64,000 nucleotides of DNA, from assembly GCF_028823635.1 (NCBI RefSeq), contig NZ_JAPEHU010000001.1:1-64000 (forward strand), written 5' to 3'. This document shows, one piece after another, positions 666-18,629 of this stretch. Position numbers and translations under genes: made by a program. Below the pieces are notes generated by a model, which worked only from the letters and a program-made list of their open reading frames with translations, was not told the origin of the DNA and made no database searches. Source of the stretch: Demequina sp. B12. GTDB lineage: Bacteria; Actinomycetota; Actinomycetes; Actinomycetales; Demequinaceae. Every line of letters starts with the position of its first letter. Position 1 is the first letter of the stretch.

Positions 666-711
666 TGGAGCCGCCTAGGAGAATCGAACTCCTGACCTAT
701 TCATTACGAGT
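666..711. repeat. Attachment site: 46-bp copy of the tRNA-Thr(CGT) 3' end
   Basis: These 46 bases are identical to 18554-18599, the CCA end, acceptor, T arm and anticodon-side part of the tRNA-Thr gene. The match stops inside the anticodon region, a usual crossover limit for tRNA-targeting integrases. It is read as the shared junction between an upstream element (integrase at 1-620) and the element at 712-6640. There is no 5' half, so it is not a tRNA gene. Confidence 0.85.
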
Positions 712-5480: not shown

Positions 5481-6554
5481 ATGGCCATCGAAAGCACCAG
5501 GGACGGCCGCTACCGCGCCAAGCCCTACTACCGCTCCGTCGCACTGCCCACGAAAATCTGCGTCACCCGCACTGAAGCCGAAGCCTGGTGCGCCACGCAG
5601 ATCGCACTGGTCAAGTCAGGCGTAGAAACAGCAGCGGGACGGCGTCCACTACGCGAATACATCGCACCCTGGCTCACACACGTGCGCGCATCAAAATCGC
5701 TATCAACCGTGCAGACGTGTGAATCCCACGCCAAGCGCTTCCCTCAATGGCTCCTGGCGCTCCACGCCGACGAAATCACACCAGCCCACCTGCAACGCGT
5801 CCTGAACGAATGGACTCGAACCGATGGCACACCATCCACACGATCCACGCTCACCCGGCTACGAGCCGACCTCTCCAGCCTCTTCACCTACATCGTCAGC
5901 ACACGCGCCATCAGCGCAAGCCCCGCCAAGGGCTTGCGCGTGCCCGAGGCCCGTGGGCCGAGGGTAGGAAACCCCCTCACACCTGAAGACGTCTCCGACC
6001 TCTATGCCCAATGGCACACCCGCAACCCGCAGGCTGCCAACGCCGCACTCCTGCTCATCCTCACCGGCCTGCGCTGGAGCGAACTGCGAGCACTGCGAGC
6101 CAAGAGCATCCGCACATCCCCAGACATCACGTGGCTACACATCACCCATTCCCATCAGGAATGCAAAGGCGAAAGGGAAACCAAAAACTCCAAGCCCCGC
6201 ACCGTGCCGCTGACCGCTCAAGCCCTCGAGATCGTCCAGGAAGCGGCGGCAGACAAGCAGCCAGAAGACCTACTCTTCCCCCGCCTATGGGCCAGCGCAT
6301 TCAAGAGAAAACTCGCGTGGGAGGACAACGCAGCAGGCCACACCCTGCACGACCTACGCCACACCGCAATCTCCACCTGGCTCGCGCGCGGCATCGACCC
6401 CGTCACAGTGCGGGACTGGGCAGGACACTCCAGCATCGACGTCACCAACCGCTACGCCCACCACCTGGGCGTCAATCGTGACATCGCCGCGCTCGCCGTG
6501 CTCAACTCCGCAGGCACACCACAGGCACCCACACCAGACAGGAGCACCCCGTGA
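5481..6554 (+). CDS. Tyrosine recombinase of the tRNA-Thr element (complete)
   Basis: This 357-aa integrase has an N-terminal arm-binding region, a SAM-like core-binding domain (about 55-145) and a catalytic domain with R198, H290/R293, H316 and nucleophile Y325. It catalyses site-specific integration and excision at the tRNA-Thr att site just downstream. It is a close relative of the truncated integrase at 1-620. No small excisionase gene is visible in the 105-base gap after the Tra gene. The gene is followed by a hairpin and then the att copy at 6600, the same order as in the other units. Confidence 0.92.
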   Translation: MAIESTRDGRYRAKPYYRSVALPTKICVTRTEAEAWCATQIALVKSGVETAAGRRPLREYIAPWLTHVRASKSLSTVQTCESHAKRFPQWLLALHADEITPAHLQRVLNEWTRTDGTPSTRSTLTRLRADLSSLFTYIVSTRAISASPAKGLRVPEARGPRVGNPLTPEDVSDLYAQWHTRNPQAANAALLLILTGLRWSELRALRAKSIRTSPDITWLHITHSHQECKGERETKNSKPRTVPLTAQALEIVQEAAADKQPEDLLFPRLWASAFKRKLAWEDNAAGHTLHDLRHTAISTWLARGIDPVTVRDWAGHSSIDVTNRYAHHLGVNRDIAALAVLNSAGTPQAPTPDRSTP

Positions 6555-6795: not shown

Positions 6796-7671
6796 CTACG
6801 CGGGCCCATCGGACGGCCCTGGCCCAAACACCTGCGATGCAATGGCACTCTCGTACACAGACATTGGGCCAGCTGGCCACGCACCGAGCTGAAAGTACCT
6901 AGTCCACAGCGCCCAGATGAGCTGCCACTCAGCCGACGAAGTTTCGGCAACCGTGACCGGCAGCCCGAGATTCCGAGCGGCCTGTGGCCCGATGGTTGCC
7001 CCGTGATAGTGGGCCTCATCGATCAGTGGCCCGCGAAGCTTGCCGACCACGGCAGTTCGGTCGTCGGCTGACATCTCGGAGCACTCAAGCGCTTCCTCGA
7101 TGAGCGTGTAACTGCGTGCCATCGCGGAACGTGCTTGCTCGATCATCAACATGTTCACATCCGCGAGCAAGCCCGCATAGAGAGGGAACGTCTCGGGTGC
7201 GGCGGCAACACGCTTCTCAGCGTCCTCGAGAGCCTGCTCGATGTCCTTAGCGCCAACGAGCCGCCCCCCAATGGGAAACTGCGGATCGACGGGCCCAAGA
7301 TCGCTCGAGGGGCTCATCAGGATCTCGTTCGCCCCCAGGCACATGATCGTGGCAGCAGACTTCGCCATGTCAGGGATGATGATCGTGAGTTTGCTACAGC
7401 GCGATTGCATGGCGCGAACCAGACGCACTGCGACCTCGCCGTCGCCTCCCGGGCTGGACAACATGAGGTGGAGTTCCTGCTCTGGGTCACTGCCCACCAA
7501 CAGTTCCTCGAGAAGAGTCACGCCATGGTTGAAAACCTGGTCAATCATGACTATGAGTTGCGCGCCAGTGGCCTCCTGATAATCACGAATGATCTTCTGC
7601 CGGTCGTACCGCCCCGCGTGCTGAGCTGCGAATAGGTGCGTCTTGCTTGCGCCCCCTAGAACTTCACTCAT
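6796..7671 (-). CDS. Serine dehydrogenase proteinase (SDH/SppA-ClpP-like fold)
   Basis: The 291-aa protein carries the crotonase/ClpP-like signature of the SDH proteinase family: SPGGDG (73-78) forming the oxyanion region, MAKSAAT (102-108) with probable Lys104/Ser105 catalysis, and the family box DLGPVDPQ (124-131). No signal peptide or membrane segment is evident, so it probably acts in the cytoplasm or at the membrane face. Its ATG overlaps the stop of a 56-aa gene. Such proteases recur in mobile islands, but their role there is not established. It is the gene closest to the left end of this unit. Confidence 0.8.
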   Translation of the reverse strand: MSEVLGGASKTHLFAAQHAGRYDRQKIIRDYQEATGAQLIVMIDQVFNHGVTLLEELLVGSDPEQELHLMLSSPGGDGEVAVRLVRAMQSRCSKLTIIIPDMAKSAATIMCLGANEILMSPSSDLGPVDPQFPIGGRLVGAKDIEQALEDAEKRVAAAPETFPLYAGLLADVNMLMIEQARSAMARSYTLIEEALECSEMSADDRTAVVGKLRGPLIDEAHYHGATIGPQAARNLGLPVTVAETSSAEWQLIWALWTRYFQLGAWPAGPMSVYESAIASQVFGPGPSDGPA

Positions 7672-7994: not shown

Positions 7995-9161
7995 TCAGCG
8001 GTTGCCCTTCGCACGGTTGTGAGTCTTGCAGAGCATCTCGCAGTTCTCGAGTGTCGTCTCGCCACCCGTAGACCAGGCCGCGACGTGGTCAGCTTCCATC
8101 TCGGCAAGCTTGTAGAGCTTGGTCCTGTTCGCATTCACCCCAACCGCGCACAAGGGACAGTTGGAGGTCCCTTGAGAAACCGCAGCGTCCGTTTGTCGAG
8201 CAAACGCCTTCTGCTTAATTGCCCTATCGAATAGTCGGATGTTCAGAAGCCTTGGCTCGGTTTTGCCGCCAAGGACAAACTCATAGACCCCCCTCTTGTC
8301 ACCAACCGATTCATCAGACAGCAGCGCTTGAACATCAGCGTCAACGTCCGAAGGACTGTACGAGACTCCGTGGTATCGCTCGTACAGTCGGCCCCAATCA
8401 AGTCCGCGCATCATCGGGTCAGGCGGCGCGGTGAAGACGGCGTCGACCCAATCGATGACCGTGCGGAAGTAGCGCTTCAGCTCAGCGATTTCTGGATCGG
8501 GGCGGTGTGCCGCCATGTAACCATCGATTGTCAGACCTTGCGCCTCTGCCACCCACGACAGTGCAACCTCAAGGACCTCCTGCCTTACCGGGGATCCCTT
8601 CACATACGCGGACCATTTCTGGTGCAGGGCGTTGCTTGAGTTTGAGAACTCGGCCTTTGCCGCTGACACGAATGGTCCCGAGTAGATTGCGTTGCGCAGC
8701 TCCTGGTCGTTTAGTGGGATACCAACAATGTTGATGGTCTTGAACCACTCCTTGATCTCAGTCTCGGTGCCACTACAGACATACACGAGCAGCTCGCTGT
8801 CAAGGAGGAGTTGGCGCTGGTCTACGGGAAGTGAAGAGAATGTCTGTTCCTTTCCATCACGCGAGATGGCAAACTTTCCCGTTACGAACCGCCCGATACT
8901 GGTTATTCGCTGCTGCCCATCCAACACCTCAAGCGCATTTCCCGTTTCCACGAAGTAGATCAGGCCAAGCGGGTACCCCTTGAGCAGCGACTCGACGACT
9001 GCGACATCCCGCTTTCCGTCGTTGTAGATGTAGTTTCTCTGGTACTCAGGCTGAATCACCAACTCGCCGTTCAGCCCATACAGACCTTTGCCTTCGAGCT
9101 CGCTGTAGAAGAACCCGTCGGTGATCTCAGCGACTGTGTAAGTTGTCCTGCGAGTCTTCAC
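7995..9161 (-). CDS. DUF262 protein with C-terminal HNH nuclease domain
   Basis: The 388-aa protein starts with a DUF262 (GmrS/SspE-like ParB-fold NTPase) domain: PEYQRNY (38-44) and the signature DGQQR (81-85). The C-terminal ~54 residues are an HNH nuclease with CPLC (335-338), EADH (356-359) and the C..LC..HNRAKG zinc/metal half (374-386). DUF262 plus HNH proteins act as nucleases in type IV and phosphorothioate-dependent restriction. Here the GTG start overlaps the stop of a methyltransferase gene, so the pair probably forms a modification-linked restriction system. Which modification it avoids or attacks cannot be told from sequence. Confidence 0.8.
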
Positions 9162-10333
9162 TGTGCGCGCCTCTGCTTAATGAACAGGCGCTTGTAGACC
9201 CCTCTAACGGGGTAACCCACGTCGAAGAACGTCCCGGGACCAAACGAGTCGACACGTATCGCGCCGCTGAGAGTCCCCGAGTTCGACTTCTTACGTACGC
9301 CATCCACGACCCGCTCCTTCTTGCCATACTTCTTCGTCCTCGGATAGTCACCTTCGCTACTACCGACGATCTCGAACTGCTCGGGGTTGTACTTGTCCAG
9401 GAAGGTAATCGGCACCCCCATCAACCCGTCATAGTCACCAGGAATGGCATCCGTGAAAGGAACCTCGATTGCGTCGAAGTTGTCGTACCGTTCGTAGCCT
9501 GCATCTCGGACCTCACGGTGCTTGCTGTACTTAAGGTTGTCGGCCATCGACATGAGCTGCAACGGCTCGTGGCGACGCCCGTGCTCGATGCTGGTGAACC
9601 ACCTGACACCCTTCACGCGGATGTATCGGCTTCCGTCTTCGCCAATGCGCGTCCCCGCCGCGTTAAGCGGATAGCTCTCTGGCACCCTGAACTCGCGGTC
9701 GCCGCTCGAGATAGTTGGACCGAGCCACATCCTGTTGTCCCGAATAAGGGGGAACACTTCCTTGTACGTGATGGCATTCATGTTCCCAATCACCGAGAAC
9801 TGAACATTACCTTCCGCAAGCCAAGAAACAAAGGCGCGGAAAAGCGAAAATGGCGGATTCGTGATGACGATGTCCGCTTCATCCCGAAGCGCAGTGACCT
9901 CCTCACTACGGAAGTCGCCATCGCCATCGAGATAATCCCATTCCAGATCATCGATGTCGACGCGACCGTCACCAGAGATGTCGTGCGGCAGGAGCGTGAA
10001 GACACGCCCTCGCTCCATCGACTTGTCGGGGTCATAGTCAGGGTCGTCGAGCTCGAACAGAGTAGGCGTGTAGAAAGATGCGCCAGCGTTGCTGTTGGGC
10101 GCATAGCTGGTCGAAATCAGTTTCTTGATGCCAAGGTCGGCGAAATGGAGCGCGAAGAACTTGGTGAAGTTTGACCACTCTGGGTCATCACATGGCAACA
10201 ATACGGTCTTGTCGCGGAACACGTCTGGGTCGTACTCAAGGTAGGCATTTACCTCCCTCTCGATGTCGACCCACTGGGTGTAGAACTCGTTCTTCTGGGC
10301 CACCCTCGCGGCAGAAAGGTCGGTGTTCGCCAT
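9158..10333 (-). CDS. EcoRI-type adenine-specific DNA methyltransferase
   Basis: The 391-aa protein shows the EcoRI methylase family pattern: KNEFYTQ near the N-terminus (14-20), [12 protein letters not shown] (45-56) as the AdoMet-binding strand region, and the catalytic NPPF (159-162) of N6-adenine methylases. It would methylate adenine in a specific site. It is the first gene of a two-gene operon with the DUF262-HNH nuclease, and the genes overlap by 4 bases. No EcoRI-like endonuclease is present, so the HNH protein is the only candidate cognate nuclease. Confidence 0.85.
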
Positions 10334-12844: not shown

Positions 12845-13732
12845 ATGTTCAACCGACCAACACGCACCGGCTCACTGTCGTTCTGGGACTACTTCACCGC
12901 GTACGCCGACCGCCAAGTGTGGGCACCACACACCGCACGCGCCGTCCATCTCGCCGCCCGCACCTTCCCGCACAAGCAGGCACCCCTTAGGTCAATCACG
13001 CCAGCCAACATCGAGACATGGATCAAAACCATGCACGATGACGGTCTCGCAGGATCAACGATCCGTACGCGGGTCGCCAACGTTCGGCCAGTGTTCGCCG
13101 CCGCCGTCCGCGACGGCCACGTCACCGACAACCCCTGTAGTGGTGTGCGACTACCGCGAATCACCAGGCGCGCCACGCGCGTCGCGCTGCCCAGTGAAGA
13201 GGTCGTGCAACGGCTCGTGCGGGGTGCACCCCAGCCCTACGACCTGCTGTTCGCTCTCGCCGCATACGCGGGGCTGAGACTTGGCGAAGCACGTGCCCTG
13301 ACGTGGGGCGATGTCGACATCAACGCGCGCCAGGTTCACGTCCGCCACCAGCTCCAGCAAAAGCCCGGCGGCGGGTGGGAGACACTTCCACCCAAGTACG
13401 GCTCCTACCGCACCATCCCCCTCGCACCCGAACTCATCGGACCACTATTGGAGGCCGAACGGGAAGAAGCCAGGCTCGTCGTGGAAGGCCCCGCAGGAGG
13501 CCCAGTGCACCCGGGCAGCATCCAACGCGTCTGGAGCCGCCACAGGCGCTCAGGCGGCCTCCCAGAGGCCTTCCACATACATGACCTGCGCCACTGGTTC
13601 GCTTCACGCCTCATCGCCAAAGGCACCGATGTCCTCACCGTCCAGCGGCAGCTCGGTCACGCCAAGGCCTCCACCAGCCTCGACGTCTACGGGCACCTCT
13701 GGACCACCCCATTCACCACCACCAGGCAGTAA
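12845..13732 (+). CDS. Tyrosine recombinase, internal to the island
   Basis: The 295-aa protein has a short core-binding domain (about 10-100) and a complete catalytic domain: R145 in YAGLRLGEAR, H246/R249 in HDLRH, H272 in LGHAK and Y282 in DVYGH. It lacks the arm-binding domain found in the att-adjacent integrases and belongs to a different subfamily. It is followed by a strong terminator but no tRNA-like att repeat, so its target is unknown. It may mark an older or nested element, or act in dimer resolution. Confidence 0.85.
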   Translation: MFNRPTRTGSLSFWDYFTAYADRQVWAPHTARAVHLAARTFPHKQAPLRSITPANIETWIKTMHDDGLAGSTIRTRVANVRPVFAAAVRDGHVTDNPCSGVRLPRITRRATRVALPSEEVVQRLVRGAPQPYDLLFALAAYAGLRLGEARALTWGDVDINARQVHVRHQLQQKPGGGWETLPPKYGSYRTIPLAPELIGPLLEAEREEARLVVEGPAGGPVHPGSIQRVWSRHRRSGGLPEAFHIHDLRHWFASRLIAKGTDVLTVQRQLGHAKASTSLDVYGHLWTTPFTTTRQ

Positions 13733-16739: not shown

Positions 16740-17339
16740 ATGAGCGAACACAGGCAATCACCCCAGCGAACGTCCTTCAGTGAGTGGCACAAGCGGACGG
16801 GCTCCTACCTGGTCGCACTTCGTAGCCAGCGCGGCCTCAGCGCCCAGCAGGTCGCCGACCGAACTTGCGAACTCGGAGTAGAAGTCACCAGGAGCTCGAT
16901 TGCGAACCTCGAATCTGGCAGGAAGACGTCGTTGTCCGTAGTCGAACTTGCAGTTCTCGCAGCGGCGCTCGAGGTCGCCCCCGTACGACTCCTCTTCGAC
17001 GTCGAGGACGAACCCGTCGAGGTGCTTCCAGGCAACTTGGTGGCTGGAGTAGAAGCCGCGGACTGGTTCTCCGGGTTGGCAACACGACCAGGCTCGACTC
17101 GCTCCGACAACCTCGCAGGACCGCTTGCCCTATACCGCCGCCACAAGGAGATCTCGAGCAAGTTCACCGACCTCATGAGCAACAAAGCGACGCCCCTCAA
17201 CAAGAAGTCGGACCTCGCGAAAGCTTGGGCAACCGCGCTACTCGCCACGCGAAGCGAGATGACCGCTTGCAAAGTAACGCCACCGCCACTTGATACGGAG
17301 ACTCAGCATTGGCTTGACTACGTGAAGGCTGATGCCTAG
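16740..17339 (+). CDS. XRE-family transcriptional regulator
   Basis: The 199-aa protein has an N-terminal lambda-repressor-like helix-turn-helix (about 20-75: LRSQRGLSAQQVADRT ... TRSSIANLESGRK), followed by an uncharacterised C-terminal half without a visible protease motif. It is the probable repressor that keeps the element silent, binding the palindromes upstream. Its stop overlaps the ATG of the integrase by 8 bases, so repressor and integrase are co-expressed. Confidence 0.8.
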   Translation: MSEHRQSPQRTSFSEWHKRTGSYLVALRSQRGLSAQQVADRTCELGVEVTRSSIANLESGRKTSLSVVELAVLAAALEVAPVRLLFDVEDEPVEVLPGNLVAGVEAADWFSGLATRPGSTRSDNLAGPLALYRRHKEISSKFTDLMSNKATPLNKKSDLAKAWATALLATRSEMTACKVTPPPLDTETQHWLDYVKADA

Positions 17340-18489
17340 GCCGCCGCTACCTGTCGGCTCATGGGGCGCGATCAATCTGCGCCACGTAGAAGGGCGGGGA
17401 TGGCGAGCCCGCACCCGTTATCGCGGCGACACGGGGTACACCCGACAGGTGGAAGCCTGGGGGCCGAGCCGCGCCGCTGCTGAACGCGCGATCAGGGATC
17501 GCCTCACGACACTCGTGGCGCTCACCGGCACAACGATCACGTCGGAAACGCGTCTAGCCGAATTGGCGACGTTTTGGCTGAGGACGGAAGTCGCGGACTC
17601 CGACCGTGCAGCCAACACCAAGAAGCGCTACGCAGACATCGTCGCAAAACGCATCGTCCCCGGCATCGGCGGTCTTGCAGTGCGTGAAGCAACCGTGGCC
17701 CGGATGGCGGCCTACATCGATGGCGTGGCACACGAGTCGGCTACGACTGCGAACCTATGCAGGTCGGTCCTCGTGGGAATGTTCAACGTGGCAGTACGCC
17801 ACGACGCCAAGCAGTCGAACCCCATACGAGAGATCGCCGCCATCCCGACGCCAGTCAAGGAAGTCCGAGCTCTCTCACAAGCAGATGTGACGGCGCTACG
17901 GAAAGACCTCGCGAGCGACAAGCAGGCACTTCGCGCTGACCTGCCCGCCGTCGTTGACGTCATGCTGGCCACCGGATGCCGAGTAGGTGAAGCGCTCGCC
18001 CTTCGCTGGCAAGACATCGACCTCGATGCCAAGACCGTGCGAATCACTGGCACCATCGTCCGCGACGAGAAACTCGGCCTCGTGCGCCAAGACAAGACGA
18101 AGGGGCGCAAGCCTCGCGCCCTGCGGCTCCCGTCGCCATTAGTGGCCCGGCTCATGGAGCGGTCGGTCGACGGACTTCCTGGCGGGCCGCTCGACCTGGT
18201 GTTTCCTACGGCGAATCTCACGCCACGCGAAGTCTCGACCGTGATGAAGCAGTGGCGAGACTTCCGCGCACGCCATCCTCGATGGGACTGGGTCACTACC
18301 CACGTGTTCCGCAAGTCTGTCGCGACGGCCATTGAGAACGCAGATGGGGTCGAAGCCGCCGCCAAGGTGTTGGGCCACTCGTCTCCCCGCACCACGGCGA
18401 AGCACTACGTCGAAGCCCCTGAGCTGAGCCACGACGCCGCCGAGACCCTGGCTGCGTTCGTGGCACCCCTAGACGAAAACGCGGGATAA
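17332..18489 (+). CDS. Tyrosine recombinase adjacent to tRNA-Thr
   Basis: The 385-aa integrase has an N-terminal arm-binding (AP2-like) domain with basic and aromatic residues (10-60), a core-binding domain (70-170) and a catalytic domain with R217, H324/R327, H349 and nucleophile Y359. It is clearly a different lineage from the integrases at 1-620 and 5481-6554, yet lies in the same position relative to the tRNA-Thr 3' end (65 bases away). It probably integrated the 6.6-18.5 kb unit or its right part. Confidence 0.9.
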   Translation: MPRPPLPVGSWGAINLRHVEGRGWRARTRYRGDTGYTRQVEAWGPSRAAAERAIRDRLTTLVALTGTTITSETRLAELATFWLRTEVADSDRAANTKKRYADIVAKRIVPGIGGLAVREATVARMAAYIDGVAHESATTANLCRSVLVGMFNVAVRHDAKQSNPIREIAAIPTPVKEVRALSQADVTALRKDLASDKQALRADLPAVVDVMLATGCRVGEALALRWQDIDLDAKTVRITGTIVRDEKLGLVRQDKTKGRKPRALRLPSPLVARLMERSVDGLPGGPLDLVFPTANLTPREVSTVMKQWRDFRARHPRWDWVTTHVFRKSVATAIENADGVEAAAKVLGHSSPRTTAKHYVEAPELSHDAAETLAAFVAPLDENAG

Positions 18490-18553: not shown

Positions 18554-18629
18554 TGGAGCCGCCTAGGAGAATCGAACTCCTGACCTATTCATTACGAGTG
18601 AATCGCTCTGCCGACTGAGCTAAGGCGGC
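18554..18629 (-). tRNA. tRNA-Thr (anticodon CGT), CCA encoded
   Basis: The 76-nt cloverleaf is complete: acceptor GCCGCCT/AGGCGGC, D stem GCTC/GAGC, anticodon stem ATTCA/TGAAT with loop CTCGTAA (anticodon CGT, reads ACG), T stem AGGAG/CTCCT with loop TTCGATT, discriminator T and encoded CCA. Its 3' 46 bases are repeated at 666-711 and, in altered form, at 6600-6640, so it is the integration target of the island. Confidence 0.95.

Follow-up and report, generated by a model that had tools for sequence, protein, structure and literature searches.

Sequence comparison across a family of two-gene units, in which an EcoRI-type adenine-N6 DNA methyltransferase (MTase) is linked to a DUF262-HNH nuclease, indicates that two segments of the MTase, T1 and T2, are exchanged independently and that the nuclease has no variable segment following them. 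The MTase therefore probably sets the specificity of the pair. The pair described here lies in a 64,000-nucleotide stretch of Demequina sp. B12 DNA (the window). The first-pass annotation had singled out the coupling of these genes; the pairing itself is already known, as PADLOC-DB models both families, with full-length matches to the entries REase_II (PDLC03418) and MTase_II (PDLC03297), and labels 75/75 members of the nuclease family REase_II and 73/73 members of the MTase family MTase_II. What appears to be new is the organisation of specificity, which lies in two MTase segments that can be exchanged without the nuclease following. No description of the pair or of its inversion was found in an open-access library, and an earlier description in other work on gene-altering inversions or in REBASE is possible.

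Results

Gene content and predicted folds of the window pair

The two genes, their minus-strand orientation and their 4-base overlap were confirmed from the open reading frames. The features of the pair are as follows.

9158..10333, minus strand: EcoRI-type adenine-N6 DNA methyltransferase gene, 391 aa, ATG start (ORF list, Pfam, AlphaFold2 model)
9848..9859, minus strand: NPPF (aa 159-162), which we take to be catalytic motif IV of the MTase; invariant or near-invariant in alignment A5
9614..9721, minus strand: T1, first variable recognition segment (predicted from alignment variability), aa 205-240
9194..9364, minus strand: T2, second, hypervariable recognition segment (predicted), aa 324-380; its counterpart is swapped by inversion in Phocaeicola relatives
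9158..9161, minus strand: 4-bp stop/start overlap from MTase to nuclease, with the MTase leading; no other junction is as frequent in the family
7995..9161, minus strand: DUF262-HNH nuclease gene, 388 aa, GTG start (ORF list, Pfam, AlphaFold2 model)
9036..9050, minus strand: PxYQR motif of DUF262, aa 38-42; P38, Q41 and R42 invariant in A6, the nuclease alignment of 75 rows
7998..8105, minus strand: HNH nuclease domain, aa 353-388 (Pfam); D358, H359, N373 and N382 invariant in A6
8907..8921, minus strand: DGQQR, putative NTP-hydrolysis motif, aa 81-85, invariant throughout A6; role from PMC8565348 and PMC11662687

The MTase matches EcoRI_methylase (PF13651, 409 bits) and the nuclease matches GmrSD_N (70.7 bits, aa 35-160) and HNH (PF01844, 31 bits, aa 353-388), with no Pfam match to DUF1524. 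The neighbour of the MTase is thus a GmrSD_N-HNH gene, in agreement with the first reading that no EcoRI-like nuclease lies beside the pair. The EcoRI-type nuclease family, PF02963, has no match in the window's own genome, a weak negative as 14 control genomes are equally silent; the R.EcoRI genes in control loci L252 and L253 reach 461 and 432 bits with this model. NCBIfam has no model for either protein, and a PDB sequence search with both detected no near relative, the best E values of 0.13 and 0.0022 being chance-like. Among 44 genomes of the genus, a full-length homologue was found in none besides that of the window, the next matches spanning only part of a domain. A ClpP-like, SDH-type serine protease gene (6796-7671, minus strand), matching phrog_11747, a family of unknown function, lies on the same strand 323 bp downstream of the nuclease.

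The AlphaFold2 model of the nuclease, built from a 75-sequence alignment, has a pLDDT of 90.6. Its top fold match is BrxU, with Z 8.3 over residues 3-149 and an rmsd of 3.9 for 128 positions. SspE (Z 6.2-6.4) and ParB (5.9) also match in the N-terminal part, McrA (6ghc, Z 5.9) and Gme HNH (5.8) match at the C-terminus, and DndI (9jfl, Z 4.7) is a further fold neighbour; these Z values are modest and aa 150-310 are barely covered by the matches listed. From this model we infer a ParB/Srx-fold NTPase-HNH protein. BrxU and SspE are described as restriction enzymes responding to DNA modification (in part in PMC8565348 and PMC11662687), and the fold match bears out the earlier assignment of DUF262 to the modification-responding type. 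Compared by eye, the PxYQR motif resembles the P23/Y25/Q26 patch of DndI, which senses phosphorothioate (PMC11662687, in part). The MTase model (pLDDT 84.5) matches adenine methylases, namely METTL5 (Z 10.0), M.TaqI (9.0), CamA (8.4) and MmeI (8.3). Because pLDDT is below 50 over most of T2, it is variation only that points to a recognition role for this segment.

Linkage of the two genes in other genomes

With the nuclease alignment as query, loci were fetched as the best 80 of 502 in genome contigs and the best 80 of 180 in viral contigs, and therefore represent near relatives. Of these 160 loci, 154 have MTase sequence next to the nuclease, 151 by profile search and the others (L101, L108, L120) as contig-edge fragments detected by tblastn. 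Upstream sequence is too short to judge in L092, L131 and L175, and the MTase is not in view in the upstream 5 kb of L040, 0.6 kb of L035 and 0.4 kb of L146. Complete pairs number 146 (170 loci, L015-L184, plus the window, minus 25 without a complete pair), of which 113 belong to clade A, or 106 after dereplication. The MTase is upstream of the nuclease in 145 of the 146 and downstream in L161. Of 145 junctions, 70 overlap (by exactly 4 bases in 52), 52 are separated by 0-30 bp, 10 by 31-200 bp and 13 by more than 200 bp.

As an unselected check, 347 sampled genomes of the order were searched. The nuclease is present in 13 and an MTase adjoins it in 13/13, including G162, where the MTase is in two overlapping reading pieces, and G201, where the start of the contig truncates it. 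The MTase is present in 19 of the 347, six times without the nuclease, two of these six being at contig ends. Among 80 viral MTase loci, 52 contain the nuclease; when restricted to the 70 that are complete enough, 51 contain it and 19 lack it within at least 1.5 kb downstream. Solitary MTases are thus common, and solitary nucleases very rare. The proposal that the pair is one conserved unit is upheld by the 154/160 loci and 13/13 genomes, and pairing by chance or confined to the window genome is ruled out by the same counts.

An intact nuclease beside a disrupted MTase occurs in L017, L027, L128 (which retains just the C-terminal part of the MTase) and G162, sequencing or assembly error being possible in each; these loci agree with a nuclease that would be harmless alone. 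No natural MTase-nuclease fusion occurs in the 160 loci, which we count against the mechanism proposed below.

Other arrangements of the MTase were also observed. Two tandem EcoRI-type MTases precede a single nuclease in L023, L119, L130, L156 and G270 (contig 17), which would fit one effector serving two specificities. In a phage contig (L155, 3800-4840), an MTase with three in-frame TGA codons adjoins an intact nuclease, probably reflecting TGA recoding in the phage instead of a broken gene. In G335 (contig 17, 50318-51598), the MTase carries an extra same-frame C-terminal-like stretch and one in-frame TAG, with no nuclease match. A Lactiplantibacillus plantarum plasmid (L254, 2180-4282) encodes a 700-aa fusion of an EcoRI-type MTase with a C5-cytosine methylase.

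Variation of the MTase segments relative to the nuclease

Both hypervariable blocks of the MTase lie behind motif IV, in clade A and clade B alike. Across the 113 clade A loci, mean column identity falls to 0.16 at MTase positions 221-240 and 0.07 at 341-380 (alignment numbering, the protein position plus two residues), the cores being mostly at 0.5-0.78; the lowest 20-residue block of the nuclease is at 0.43. Clade B is similar, the MTase blocks being at 0.21 and 0.04-0.16 and the nuclease minimum at 0.41. By analogy with M.EcoRI, we infer that T1 and T2 are target recognition parts.

At 60% identity, the clade A loci comprise 29 T1 classes and 59 T2 classes in 93 combinations. Among 5,565 dereplicated pairs of loci, T1 is common to 454, T2 to 136 and both to 24, where 11 would be expected if the two were independent; T1 and T2 are mildly linked and independence is incomplete. 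Exchange of each segment alone is seen in L042, which has T2 but not T1 in common with L095 and T1 but not T2 in common with L103. T1 classes also pass between clade A and clade B nucleases of 37-40% identity (T1 0.83), and the window's own T1 class occurs beside the clade B nucleases of L182 and L184.

The nuclease does not reflect these changes. With overall identity allowed for, none of its 15-aa blocks tracks T1 or T2, the best partial r being 0.057 for T1 and 0.051 for T2 against permutation 95% levels of 0.072 and 0.062. In 29 dereplicated pairs of loci with nucleases at least 85% identical, T1 is changed in 21, T2 in 21, either in 26 and both in 16. Grouped at the same threshold, 9 of 14 nuclease clusters contain a T1 or T2 change, and at least three of the five unchanged clusters are pairs of identical or near-identical loci. 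On the MTase side, no column separates nuclease-linked from solitary MTases, so that a nuclease-docking signature was not found, a second point counted against the proposed mechanism; two columns differ from the three R.EcoRI-linked MTases, one of which is conserved in the solitary group as well.

Inversion of T2 and spare MTase ends

Exchange of T2 beside an unchanged nuclease is seen most directly in Phocaeicola massiliensis. The plasmid record OY725995 (L021) and strain DSM 17679 (L029) differ by inversion of a ∼0.4-kb segment, with 99.6% identity outside it. The segment is flanked by 19-bp exact inverted repeats (L021, 2705-2723 and 3070-3088) lying within the codons that immediately precede T2. 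The two MTases are the same to aa 329 and then end in 68 or 48 differing residues, and the nucleases are identical over 390/390 residues. The locus order is HTH, MTase, Bro-N protein, nuclease, tyrosine recombinase. The T2 classes of state 1 and of the spare end occur elsewhere as intact MTase ends, at identities up to 0.69 and 0.81, respectively; for state 2, identity reaches only 0.53. An identical nuclease in both T2 states points to the MTase as the seat of specificity, and if the nuclease read a site of its own, host sites would lose protection when T2 flips.

Related arrangements include a spare MTase end on the opposite strand in L107, an opposite-strand fragment at the contig edge in L108, a 16-bp inverted repeat in L106, and spare ends in direct orientation in L031 and L105. 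In the viral contig L161 (clade B), two facing MTase ends lie between perfect 21-bp inverted repeats, one orientation being seen. The invertible segment present in L021 and L029 is absent from the window, where the MTase reading frame ends within the start of the nuclease gene.

Comparison with R.EcoRI-linked methyltransferases

Three systems with a real R.EcoRI, from E. coli (L252), Leuconostoc (L253) and Raoultella (L256), served as controls, a small number. Among the three, only E. coli EcoRI is known to read GAATTC. Identities are 0.64-0.91 for R, 0.64-0.83 for the whole of M, 0.75-0.94 for T1 and 0.79-0.89 for T2. Judged by these values, R.EcoRI-linked MTases keep T1 and T2, opposite to the DUF262-HNH-linked MTases. 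The window T1 and T2 belong to sequence classes other than those of M.EcoRI. M.EcoRI-like segments do occur apart in nuclease-linked MTases, T1 in L111, L080 and L077 and T2 in L100, where it is combined with the window's T1 class, as expected if T1 and T2 were separable half-recognition parts.

EcoRI and the window pair have in common the MTase family PF13651 and the T1/T2 layout. They differ in the nuclease, PF02963 being unrelated to the GmrSD_N-HNH protein, in gene order, R preceding M in EcoRI, and in the conservation of T1 and T2.

A mobile element at tRNA-Thr

The pair lies within a 17,933-bp element that has the last 45 bp of tRNA-Thr repeated at its two borders, in keeping with the mobile island proposed at first reading.

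666..710, minus strand: outer element border, an att-like repeat of the 3' end of tRNA-Thr; exact over 45 bp
18554..18598, minus strand: att within tRNA-Thr (18554-18629), other element border; exact 45-bp repeat
17332-18489, beside tRNA-Thr: tyrosine-integrase-like ORF, from reading the sequence

A 32-bp core of the att repeat was found again in a repeat search, in which shuffles expect 0. Integrase-like ORFs are present in the window at 6-620, 5481-6554, 12845-13732 and 17332-18489, together with a RepSA-type replication gene at 843-1898, and may represent nested or tandem elements at tRNA-Thr. Across phyla, the pair is found on plasmids, on phages and in an integrated element. In L022, L255 and L258, a plasmid MTase, with or without the nuclease, lies close to resistance genes annotated as erm(A), optrA or mef(F).

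Discussion

Specificity set by the MTase can be extended to a full mechanism, in which the two genes form a restriction-modification system and the MTase mediates the action of the nuclease. The MTase would methylate host sites with two-part T1/T2 specificity. Where such a site is unmethylated, the DUF262-HNH protein would be recruited or licensed by the MTase or by the site that the MTase marks out. Binding or hydrolysis of NTP through DGQQR would then activate the HNH domain, which would nick or cut DNA. The logic would be that of Mod/Res (type III) or PglX (BREX), the effector here being a small ParB/Srx-fold NTPase-HNH protein. As a docking signature was not found, we place this full mechanism slightly below an even chance. 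A more general statement seems to us evenly balanced between true and false. In it, one single-chain EcoRI-type MTase, whose two recognition parts recombine freely, would determine the self mark and also what an invariant NTP-dependent ParB/Srx-HNH nuclease acts on, so that specificity could be shuffled without suicide.

In both type III Mod/Res and BREX PglX, the methylase alone sets specificity. An exchangeable MTase recognition part with a conserved nuclease is common to type III and the window family; the helicase-type Res is absent from the two-gene unit, its partner being DUF262-HNH. BREX (PMC8565348, in part) is alike in methylase-set specificity and a conserved effector, and differs in that the two-gene unit contains no other BREX gene. 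Phase-variable type I hsdS loci, in which invertons are described (PMC11892184, in part), resemble the Phocaeicola relatives in that inversion swaps recognition parts beside a tyrosine recombinase; they switch a separate specificity subunit, whereas relatives of the window pair switch the C-terminus of a single-chain EcoRI-type MTase.

The absence of a docking signature would be understandable if the nuclease had no sequence preference and its DUF262 domain sensed m6A, the MTase protein itself never being needed. As in SspE or DndI, the mark would either restrain the nuclease on self DNA or activate it against unmarked DNA, any T1/T2 combination would work, and indifference of the nuclease to T1 and T2 is explained equally well. 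SspABCD-SspE and DndBCDE-DndI likewise combine a DUF262-HNH effector with a self-marking module, and the shared DUF262 NTPase plus HNH architecture is matched by the predicted fold; SspE is activated and DndI released by the mark (PMC11662687, in part). Their mark is a phosphorothioate and their nuclease domain DUF1524, compared with a predicted m6A from an EcoRI-type MTase and an HNH of PF01844 in the window. SspE and DndI each read one motif, according to part of the same source, whereas a reader in this family would have to recognise m6A whatever its surrounding sequence, across dozens of contexts or more, and self and non-self would be blurred by any other m6A methylase of the cell. We consider methyl reading somewhat less likely than action through the MTase, and the most serious of the alternatives. 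The first-pass annotation had proposed that the nuclease reads or avoids the methyl mark; this survives as one of two mechanisms that fit, action through the MTase fitting as well, and the earlier interpretation as a whole is partly supported.

The PADLOC assignment implies a classical type II system, with a nuclease that recognises the MTase's site by itself. Linked MTase and nuclease genes are indeed present, and the linkage is obligate in the sense that MTases are solitary at times and nucleases hardly ever. The comparison presented here argues against nuclease specificity, as T1 or T2 is changed in 26 of 29 pairs with near-identical nucleases with no block tracking the change, one identical nuclease occurs with two MTase ends in L021 and L029, and MTases linked to R.EcoRI behave oppositely. 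A nuclease cutting alone would also be lethal in L017, L027, L128 and G162, unless these reflect assembly errors. Own recognition by the nuclease matching that of the MTase is thus not apparent, and we regard the classical reading as improbable.

Two further possibilities are less probable still. GmrSD and BrxU, which like the window nuclease are NTP-dependent, HNH-type nucleases with a DGQQR-containing DUF262 domain, attack modified (e.g. hydroxymethylated) phage DNA (PMC12707154 and PMC8565348, in part), and BrxU is the top fold match; a type IV-like nuclease beside an MTase of other purpose is nevertheless very unlikely, since BrxU works without a neighbouring methylase (PMC8565348, in part) and the window-family nuclease is almost never without one. 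GmrSD and BrxU differ further in carrying DUF1524 and acting on modified cytosine. The portions examined of PMC4619093, on GmrSD neighbourhoods, do not mention MTase pairing; further background is provided in part by PMC8713573 and PMC10333322. Lowest of all we rank a mainly epigenetic switch or element-stabilising addiction module with defence secondary. T2 inversion, the tyrosine recombinase gene in that locus and the presence of the pair in an integrated element, in phages and on plasmids would suit such a role. It leaves nuclease retention beside the MTase in 13/13 nuclease-bearing genomes unexplained, and addiction is at odds with a broken MTase beside an intact nuclease in L017 and L027.

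In the usual view, the specificity of a type II system is locked, since the site is read separately by R and by M. With two small genes, the family described here seems to escape the lock, and the label 'type II restriction enzyme' may mislead for these DUF262-HNH nucleases. If the effector does follow any MTase, specificity would be programmable by swapping segments of ∼36 and ∼57 residues, and bacteria, phages and plasmids could shuffle it by recombination, which would account for how widely the pair is distributed among phyla, plasmids and phages. Some gut Bacteroidota would then shuffle specificity by programmed inversion, avoiding the suicide that accompanies a change of specificity in classical type II systems. 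The pair would offer a simple setting for studying how DUF262 NTPase-nucleases tell self from non-self.
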